From a virus: a stretch of DNA of 42,493 nucleotides. This document shows, piece after piece, positions 22,660 to 42,493 of this stretch. The position numbers and the translations under genes were made by a program. The stretch is from IMG/VR virus record IMGVR_UViG_3300049911_000061, positions 1-42,493 of that record; one strand, given 5' to 3'. The notes beneath the pieces are model-generated. The model was given only the letters and a program-made list of their open reading frames with translations. It was not told where the DNA came from and did no database searches. Numbering within the stretch: the stretch's first letter is position 1; the number at the start of each line of letters is the position of its first letter.

Positions 22660-22660
22660 T

Positions 22661-22696
22661 AAAAAAGCCGACCTGCCTGAGCTCAGATCGGCTTTT
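22661..22696 (-). terminator. Terminator-like hairpin before portal
   Basis: AAAAGCCGA (22663-22671) pairs with TCGGCTTTT (22688-22696); the inner loop contains a CTGAGCTCAG palindrome. On the minus strand the right arm is followed by six T residues. It lies three bases upstream of the first portal start codon, so it would separate the packaging/early genes from the late operon unless antitermination acts. Confidence 0.7.
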
Positions 22697-22824
22697 ACCA
22701 GAAAGGAGAGAGAAGAAATGAGGGAGCGACCCTCTTAGTTAAACTTTAGTTAAACACAAAAAAAAGGAATTTACAAAGAAGAATTGTGACCAAATGGAAA
22801 ATTTGGAAGGATTGGAAGGTTTTT
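22697..22824. other. Noncoding interval with direct repeats and a small hairpin
   Basis: No gene fits here. On the minus strand the interval holds two copies of GTTTAACTAA (22736-22759 region) and a GAGGG/CCCTC five-base hairpin beside them. It sits next to the terminase genes, so a regulatory or packaging-related site is possible; no cos or pac site can be identified by eye. Confidence 0.45.
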
Positions 22825-23022
22825 TTATTCAATTGATTTCATTTTGCTCTCCATCCGGCAATTTATGACGGATTCTCGTGGAATTCGGATAGTCCCACGG
22901 ATCTTCTCAGCTTGTAAAATGCCATGATCGATCCAGAGGTAGATTGTCGAAATGGATACATCAAAGTAGATAGCACATTCATCAACCCGCAATAGGGGTT
23001 TATTTGGAAGATCGGTCATCAT
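22825..23022 (-). CDS. HTH_17 DNA-binding protein (MerR/excisionase-like)
   Basis: 65 residues from the ATG at 23022, which overlaps the upstream stop as ATGA; the ATG at 23058 would overlap that gene by 40 bases. LRVDECAIYFDVSISTIYLWIDHGILQAEKIRGTIRIPRESV is a winged helix of the helix-turn-helix 17 type found in excisionases and small phage regulators. Its place beside terminase genes makes a role in packaging or late regulation possible. Confidence 0.75.
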   Translation of the reverse strand: MMTDLPNKPLLRVDECAIYFDVSISTIYLWIDHGILQAEKIRGTIRIPRESVINCRMESKMKSIE

Positions 23023-39328: not shown

Positions 39329-39438
39329 GAGCGTATTCCGACGAAGAAGAGTTGGATTTGCGATTAGAAGATAAACTCGATAGAATGAGGGAGGCAAGGG
39401 CAGAGGCAGAGGAAGAAGAGAAAGAGGAGGAGGATTAA
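39325..39438 (+). CDS. Acidic 37-residue peptide
   Basis: ATGA overlap with the coiled-coil gene. Almost only Glu, Asp, Arg and Ala (EEEKEEED end). Its stop codon lies in the first helix of the RNA element that follows, so translation and RNA folding may interact. Confidence 0.5.
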   Translation: MRAYSDEEELDLRLEDKLDRMREARAEAEEEEKEEED

Positions 39439-39587
39439 GGTGGGTGGTGGCGGTTCATCGGTGAGGCGGAGTCTGGTTAGTGCTTCCGAGGGAAACCTGA
39501 CGGGAAGCGAGCTGTTGGGAAGAATAGGGCCAGACAGCGACAAGGTGGAGTCCGAGATCACCGACCATTCACCCACCTTTTGAAAGG
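39437..39587 (+). ncRNA. Riboswitch-like structured leader, copy B
   Basis: P1: AAGGTGGGTG (39437-39446) with CACCCACCTT (39570-39579), 10 bp. P2: TCGGTGA (39458-39464) with TCACCGA (39558-39564). P3: GTCTGG (39471-39476) with CCAGAC (39530-39535). P4: GCTTCC (39482-39487) with GGAAGC (39503-39508) and inner AGG-GAAA-CCT. The P1 3' arm CCTT (39576-39579) can pair AAGG (39584-39587) which is the ribosome site of the gene at 39595. This is the layout of a translational switch. Confidence 0.65.
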
Positions 39588-39594
39588 AGAAAGG

Positions 39595-39777
39595 ATGGGA
39601 CTTTGTATTAAGTGTGGAACATGGCATTCTTCTGTGGAATGTCCTCCACCTAAAAAGGTTACTTGTGAGTGCGGAAATTCTTTTTTAATGCCTTGGGATT
39701 CTACTGGGTTAATTGAATTTATTACTTGTGGGAAGTGTAGAAAGAAGATGGTGAATGCAAAGATTGAAGATGTTTAG
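39595..39777 (+). CDS. Double zinc-ribbon small protein
   Basis: 60 residues. ATG 39595 lies six bases after AAAGGAG in element B. CIKCGTWHSSVEC, CECGNSF and CGKCRKK form zinc knuckles. Its stop lies inside the P1 helix of element C. Confidence 0.65.
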   Translation: MGLCIKCGTWHSSVECPPPKKVTCECGNSFLMPWDSTGLIEFITCGKCRKKMVNAKIEDV

Positions 39778-39901
39778 AGGGTGCTTCAGAGATCCCACTC
39801 CGTAACCAGTCGGTCTTGTGAGTCGAATTACCCCATATCGGGTAAGTAAGACAATAGCAAGAGGGATAGGCCACCTGGGCACTCTCTAACCTTTTAAGAG
39901 G
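39774..39901 (+). ncRNA. Riboswitch-like structured element, copy C
   Basis: P1: TTAGAGGGTGC (39774-39784) with GCACTCTCTAA (39879-39889), 11 pairs including one G-U. Inner helices: ATCCC (39792-39796) with GGGAT (39863-39867); GTCTT (39813-39817) with AAGAC (39848-39852); TTACCC (39828-39833) with GGGTAA (39840-39845). P1 is followed by CCTTTTAAGAGG (39890-39901), again able to form a CCTT/GAGG hairpin over a ribosome-site-like segment. No ORF starts right after it. Confidence 0.6.
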
Positions 39902-39910
39902 AAGAAGATT

Positions 39911-40026
39911 AAGGTGGAGTGGTGGCGAAAGCCAGAGCGACGTAGCCCGTACGAGCAGGACTAATCGACAGGAGAATAACCTGTACTCTGTAAAGAGTGG
40001 AGCCTGCCCACCCACCTTTTGAAAGG
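39911..40026 (+). ncRNA. Riboswitch-like structured leader, copy D
   Basis: P1: AAGGTGGaGTGG (39911-39922) with CCACCCACCTT (40008-40018), one bulge. Inner: TGGC-GAAA-GCCA (39923-39934); CGTA/TACG (39941-39953); GCAGG (39955-39959) with CCTGC (40003-40007); ACAGG/CCTGT (39968-39984); ACTCT-GTAA-AGAGT (39985-39998). CCTT (40015-40018) can pair AAGG (40023-40026) in the ribosome site of the gene at 40035. Confidence 0.65.
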
Positions 40027-40034
40027 AGGATAAG

Positions 40035-40103
40035 ATGGCTTGTAATATGAGGTGTAAAGAATGTAAATTGGCTTGTGGAGGAAGGAGGAATCCCAATGAG
40101 TAA
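40035..40103 (+). CDS. 22-residue Cys-rich peptide
   Basis: GAAAGGAGG lies before the ATG in element D. MACNMRCKECKLACGG has four Cys spaced to bind zinc. Its stop overlaps the next gene. It may be the translated target, or a leader, of the switch-like RNA. Confidence 0.5.
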   Translation: MACNMRCKECKLACGGRRNPNE

Positions 40104-40320
40104 AGAGAAGTGGAAAGAGGAGGCTCAGAAATATTGGGAGAAGCATCACAATGATGGTAATCCTGCCTATGTAGTCCAAGAGGCCTATCTCCAAGCCTGC
40201 AAGGTGAGGCAGGAGGAGATTGAGAAGTTGAAGGATGAGAATGCTACCTTGAGATATACAATTAGAATGTTACAAATGCCAGCAGAAAGTTCTAAGTTCA
40301 AATTTAAGGAGACAAAATGA
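40096..40320 (+). CDS. Small coiled-coil protein
   Basis: 74 residues from ATG 40096 with AGGAGG upstream (within the peptide before). KEKWKEEAQKYWEKHHNDGNPAYVVQEAYLQACKVRQEEIEKLKDENATLRYTIRML is helical; coupled by ATGA to the next gene. Confidence 0.6.
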   Translation: MSKEKWKEEAQKYWEKHHNDGNPAYVVQEAYLQACKVRQEEIEKLKDENATLRYTIRMLQMPAESSKFKFKETK

Positions 40321-42381: not shown

Positions 42382-42493
42382 ATCATTTCACCTCTTCATT
42401 GTAACCCAAGTCTTTTCTTAGACCTTTGATGTCCCTTGAAATTTCGACCTGGCCCATCTTAATTAATCCGATGTCTTTGGCCAATAATTGTAA
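42367..42493. repeat. Terminal direct repeat, right copy
   Basis: Exact second copy of bases 1-127. It should be counted once in the circular map. Confidence 0.93.

Follow-up and report, generated by a model that had tools for sequence, protein, structure and literature searches.

Several kinds of structured element are known to lie between genes. In tRNA punctuation, RNase P and RNase Z act between cistrons; an acceptor of 12 bp is atypical for RNase P. The RNase III R sites of phage T7 are hairpins, several per operon, which lie between a stop codon and the next RBS and are variable in their loops; such a signal is not defined by its structure alone. Translational riboswitches are structured RNAs in which the ligand core is conserved and the closing helix (P1) drifts. 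In integron attC sites, which lie between small genes, a variable terminal structure is closed by conserved ends.

The RNA family described here resembles each of these in part. Like punctuating tRNAs, its members lie between cistrons, and about half of them are predicted to form a cloverleaf; a 7-bp inner acceptor lies flush with a 5-bp GYAGG/CCTGC stem, and a U follows the acceptor. However, the acceptor-like helix is 9–12 bp long, there is no CCA, the D-loop is short or absent, the T-loop is lost except in one member (L310), the anticodon arm is variable, and 11 of the 12 members are not recognized as tRNA. The T7 R sites are similar in being repeated within an operon, in their placement between stop codon and RBS, and in their variable loops, whereas in this family unrelated phages have kept the sequence of P1 and of the bases at its inner end, and the continuous duplex is shorter. 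As in translational riboswitches, a structured RNA has its P1 directly before the RBS, but the family has no conserved ligand core and no common switch, and its SD is open by default. As in attC, conserved ends close a variable structure between small genes, but core-site motifs are absent, there is a sense-strand (RNA) bias, and the orientation to the SD is constant.

The stretch of DNA analyzed, which we call the window, is an IMG/VR virus record of 42.5 kb. One reading frame (MAKDIGLIKMGQVEISRDIKGLRKDLGYNEEVK) is present at each of its ends (17–115 and 42383–42484), which suggests that the genome is complete and circularly permuted, with a terminal repeat. In the operon that ends near 40.5 kb, neighboring genes mostly abut or overlap (gaps of −98 to +59 nt), and there are two large gaps: one of 156 nt, which holds an element that we call B, and one of 257 nt, which holds two more, C and D. 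In two comparisons with shuffles, the first of them dinucleotide shuffles, the folds have z scores of −4.06 and −4.3 for B, −2.39 and −3.4 for C, and −2.69 and −4.1 for D. These results, together with the homologues of D, agree with the earlier note, which had placed structured RNA elements ahead of RBSs in this region. The note had also stressed their long P1 helices. Both P1 arms were located in B, C and D, but helices of 10 bp or more with similar span occur 31 times in the window, and the P1s of B and C, taken as helices alone, are ordinary. The support therefore comes from shared edges and homologues and not from helix length: B and D are set apart by their common flanks, and D also by its homologues. 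A promoter and terminator scan of the element region gave nothing clearly above shuffles. Elsewhere in the window, a minus-strand intergenic stretch of about 360 nt between structural genes (22660–23018) contains a strong terminator-like hairpin (GCCGACCTGCC...).

Element D (39911–40018), like all features of this operon described below, is on the plus strand; it was identified from the covariance model, its z score and its homologues. The 5′ arm of P1 (AAGGTGGAGTGG, 39911–39922, with one bulged A) pairs with the 3′ arm (CCACCCACCTT, 40008–40018) in the MFE folds, and is compensatory relative to GGCCAATGG of other phages. Within P1, the MFE structure contains a D-arm-like hairpin, P2 (GGC-GAAA-GCC, 39924–39933), followed by a variable middle arm, P3 (a CGTA/TACG hairpin, 39941–39953), whose position is common to several relatives although its sequence differs. 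P4 is T-stem-like: its 5′ arm GCAGG (39955–39959) pairs with CCTGC (40003–40007), which is flush against P1. Five nucleotides past P1 come the SD AGGAGG and the ATG (40024–40037) of a 22-aa Cys-rich ORF (40035–40103), which is overlapped by a 74-aa ORF (40096–40320), the first larger gene past D in the ORF list.

Element B (39437–39579; P1 arms 39437–39446 and 39570–39579), recognized from its edge repeats and z score, has the edges of D around an unrelated interior. The upstream 22-mers of B and D are 91% identical and the downstream 20-mer CACCCACCTTTTGAAAGGAG is identical, which bears out the common P1 and platform noted earlier for these two elements, whereas their interiors differ. The ORF list places a 60-aa Cys-rich, zinc-ribbon-like ORF after B (39595–39777), for which no Pfam family was found. 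Element C (39774–39889; P1 arms 39774–39784 and 39879–39889), an 11-bp P1 hairpin recognized from its z score and the helix itself, adjoins D and resembles B and D only in the stretch past P1 (ACCTTTTaaGAGG). Two 24-nt arms, one in the gene after B (39638–39661) and one at the end of C (39887–39910), are 75% complementary, which may be chance. B, C and D do not represent a single riboswitch repeated three times.

Relatives were reached through homologues of the exonuclease gene, which led to two phages with GGCCAATGG/CCATTGGCC P1 elements before RBSs; IMG/VR viral contigs were then scanned with patterns, combined with a P1 test. This gave at least 12 members in at least 10 IMG/VR contigs: D, three elements in L139, and one each in L137, L142, L148, L150, L152, L310 (of which L311 is a repeat), L344, and L366. 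The family is probably larger than these 12. Several of the carriers have few or no structural genes in common with the window phage. A covariance model (R1) scored 49–88 bits on all 12 members, with D at 49 bits, and, across some 3.1 Mb of further viral DNA, matched nothing else with E ≤ 0.01. A second model (R2), which left out the window and used the 11 other members, gave a single match in the window, at D (39909–40018, E 5e-5). Neither model detected B or C; of the three elements described in the earlier note, D belongs to a wider family and the other two were not recovered with it. A search of INPHARED phages gave no similar DNA, a plasmid search gave one weak match, inside a VOC gene, and a model search of 795 bacterial genomes from two phyla gave only weak isolated matches resembling coding DNA. 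Six matches to the core motif in genome contigs lacked the closing P1 and 3′ arm and were taken as chance. No Rfam family matches B, C or D, consistent with the earlier note, in which no known riboswitch class was recognized, and in the literature collection that was searched no such family of phage RNAs had been described. On sequence comparison, D is one of at least 12 related elements, predicted to be folded, that make up a real and uncatalogued family.

The closing helix of the family is 9–12 bp long (GACGGCCARTGG/CCATTGGCCGTC). Immediately inside it, TGG is invariant on the 5′ side in all 12 listed members (TGGC in 11/12), and (T/A)GC is found on the 3′ side. The GYAGG/CCTGC arm pairing, flush with P1, occurs in most members and is absent in L137 and in the first L139 element, while the GGC-GAAA-GCC hairpin after P1 is found in D, L142 and L152. 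The interior columns are unconserved; the conserved parts are P1, TGG(C), (C)TGC and the common P4. In about half of the members the MFE fold is a cloverleaf or four-way junction, and RNAalifold favors a P1 extended by two conserved G–C pairs across a 2-nt bulge, so that the predictions leave two alternatives, a cloverleaf or an extended P1. P1 covaries among the homologues, as the earlier proposal of a structured RNA would predict: five pairs are changed on both sides, and 0/500 shuffles reach the score, in what is a modest sample of 12 related sequences. The inner 10 bp of P1 contain 10 G–U wobbles versus one A–C mismatch (p 0.012), an excess that speaks for the sense RNA, so that the sense strand is probably the one that folds. 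Interior stability is weakly above that of shuffles, with a Stouffer z of about −3 on both strands.

Some further observations were made in the carrier phages. The phage G006 contains an extra hairpin (L152, 11344–11420), whose closing helix, GGCCAATAGG/CCTATTGGCC, varies that of P1 with compensated changes; the hairpin lies before another RBS and has a weak model score. A 56-nt hairpin with GGCGGCC/GGCCGCC closing (L003, 9203–9258) lies directly 5′ of the G001 family member, with an SD-like AAAGGAG between the two, in a tandem like C and D of the window. The 5′ part of the L142 element, CAATGGTGGCGAAAGCC (95–115), looks like the beginning of a bacterial tRNA-Leu (GGTGGCGGAA) and like a stretch of 16S rRNA (CAATGGGCGCAAGCC); we take this as a lead only.

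Relative to the gene downstream, all 12 elements point the same way. Ten of them are 2–10 nt upstream of an SD, while L366 and G002c have no clear SD; several begin at the upstream stop codon or within 15 nt of it. The genes that follow are mostly small and without an assigned function, and several appear by eye to be charged and coiled-coil-like. The Cys-rich character that the earlier note gave to the controlled genes does apply to the ORFs at 39595 and 40035, but generally not to the genes that follow the relatives. In 8 of 10 members tested, the computed accessibility of the SD is higher beside the native element than beside shuffled ones (Wilcoxon p 0.005); the SDs of L344 and B are poorly accessible. 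The calculations favor an element by which the RBS is kept open over a switch that sequesters it by default.

We also examined the resemblance to tRNA. The L310 element matched the Rfam tRNA family RF00005 in one run (31.1 bits, gathering threshold 29), but in later runs with a near-identical sequence the sole match was to tRNA-Sec, at 19.6 bits, so the likeness to tRNA comes mainly from ARAGORN. This program calls L310 a tRNA of unknown type, with a four-letter anticodon in an 8-nt loop, and calls no tRNA in the other 11 members or in B or C; Rfam likewise gives no tRNA match for D. When the interior was shuffled and the ends kept, ARAGORN made 0/18,000 calls, and when the GYAGG arm was also kept it made 6/18,000, all from L310. 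A tRNA would be expected to have a TTCRANT T-loop and a 7-nt anticodon loop; a T-loop-like TTAGACT occurs in L310 alone, where the anticodon loop has 8 nt, and in D there is a long inserted arm instead. The geometry of an acceptor and T-stem does fit the innermost 7 bp of P1 together with the flush 5-bp stem. Given that 11 members are unrecognized as tRNA, we treat a tRNA-like origin of the family as no more than plausible. A tRNA-like 3′ half, perhaps Pro, was seen in G005 (L150, 18100–18150), with an integrase-like gene on one side and the element on the other, and is probably the attachment site.

The earlier note read these elements as translational riboswitches, in which a small molecule or metal would toggle P1 against an SD-sequestering hairpin. 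There are indeed stable folds before RBSs, and the CCTT in P1 of B and D could pair with the SD. However, the CCTT/AAGG pairing, which the note had taken to exclude P1, competes with only the outer 4 bp of that helix; the hairpin is weak, at 6.1 kcal/mol above the MFE in B and 4.8 kcal/mol in D, and the CCTT...AAGG sequence was not seen in the relatives. Furthermore, P1 and its adjoining bases are kept while the interior, where a ligand core would be, is free to vary, which is the reverse of riboswitches and leaves this reading unsupported. With an SD that is usually open by default, following genes that have no common pathway, and no match to any Rfam riboswitch model, we regard a riboswitch as very improbable. 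It is scarcely credible that the elements are instead small protein-coding genes: open frames with SD-like sequence do run across B (for example a 47-aa frame at 39440–39583), L142 and others, but the frame is stopped early in L310, L366 and G002a, and the ends of the members fall in different frames.

The conserved bases are at the inner end of P1, which makes a protein operator the main rival: a host or phage RNA-binding regulator would recognize these bases (GG-U-GGC/(C)UGC-CC) and control translation of the next gene. The (near) invariance, in 12/12 members, of P1 and of the TGG and (T/A)GC beside it, around an interior that varies, and the lengthening of P1 predicted by RNAalifold both fit such a site, but no protein is common to all of the carrier phages (BLASTP, E ≤ 1e-3), so that the factor would need to come from the host, and we consider this explanation unlikely. 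An operator in DNA was also considered and rejected, since the GGCCAATGG motif occurs elsewhere only sporadically. Conserved ends around a variable interior, between changing small genes, could also mark a DNA recombination site or gene-cassette boundary, that is, an attC-like folded hairpin used in small-gene exchange. B and D are alike at their edges and not inside, and a tyrosine integrase is nearby in G001, G005 and G006; in the window, however, the integrase (30.7–31.9 kb) is about 7.5 kb away. The wobble bias towards the sense strand and the absence of attC core sites (RYYYAAC/GTTRRRY) at the element ends nevertheless disfavor recombination, as do the constant orientation and SD spacing, and it seems to us quite improbable.

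We therefore return to the reading that we prefer, with a probability of roughly 0.45: an intercistronic spacer element that punctuates the mRNA, freeing the RBS from upstream pairing, marking a site for processing, or both. D, and B with a replaced interior, would be intercistronic RNA elements of a polycistronic phage mRNA, in which a long closing helix, with a stop codon before it and an SD after it, surrounds a fast-evolving interior, in a predicted fold resembling a tRNA with an extended acceptor stem. Such an element may free the RBS of the next small gene from pairing with upstream sequence, and/or may mark the junction for host RNase P, RNase Z or RNase III, the tRNA-like fold making host tRNA-processing enzymes or RNase III the candidates. 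What the analysis shows is the family itself, the bias towards the sense strand, where the elements lie, and an SD that is open by calculation; recognition by an enzyme or protein, and any effect on expression, are inferred. The elements are likely to set apart or shield the next gene. Against punctuation is the fact that L310 is the only member recognized as tRNA-like, and so are the atypical 12-bp acceptor, the weak extra stability of the interiors, the poorly accessible SDs of L344 and B, and the two members in which no clear SD is present. A more specific version, in which tRNA-derived elements have been turned into phage mRNA punctuation, with an extended acceptor, placement between stop codon and RBS, and possibly several copies per operon with exchangeable interiors, and recruit the host tRNA-processing machinery to separate cistrons, we hold to be rather doubtful.

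The analysis reveals an RNA family common to phages whose genes are otherwise different, and defined by its edges and not by its core. Its members provide concrete sites for end-mapping and reporter tests. If tRNA-like punctuation is true, these phages would partition their polycistronic mRNA by means of a tRNA-like fold, rather than by promoters or riboswitches.
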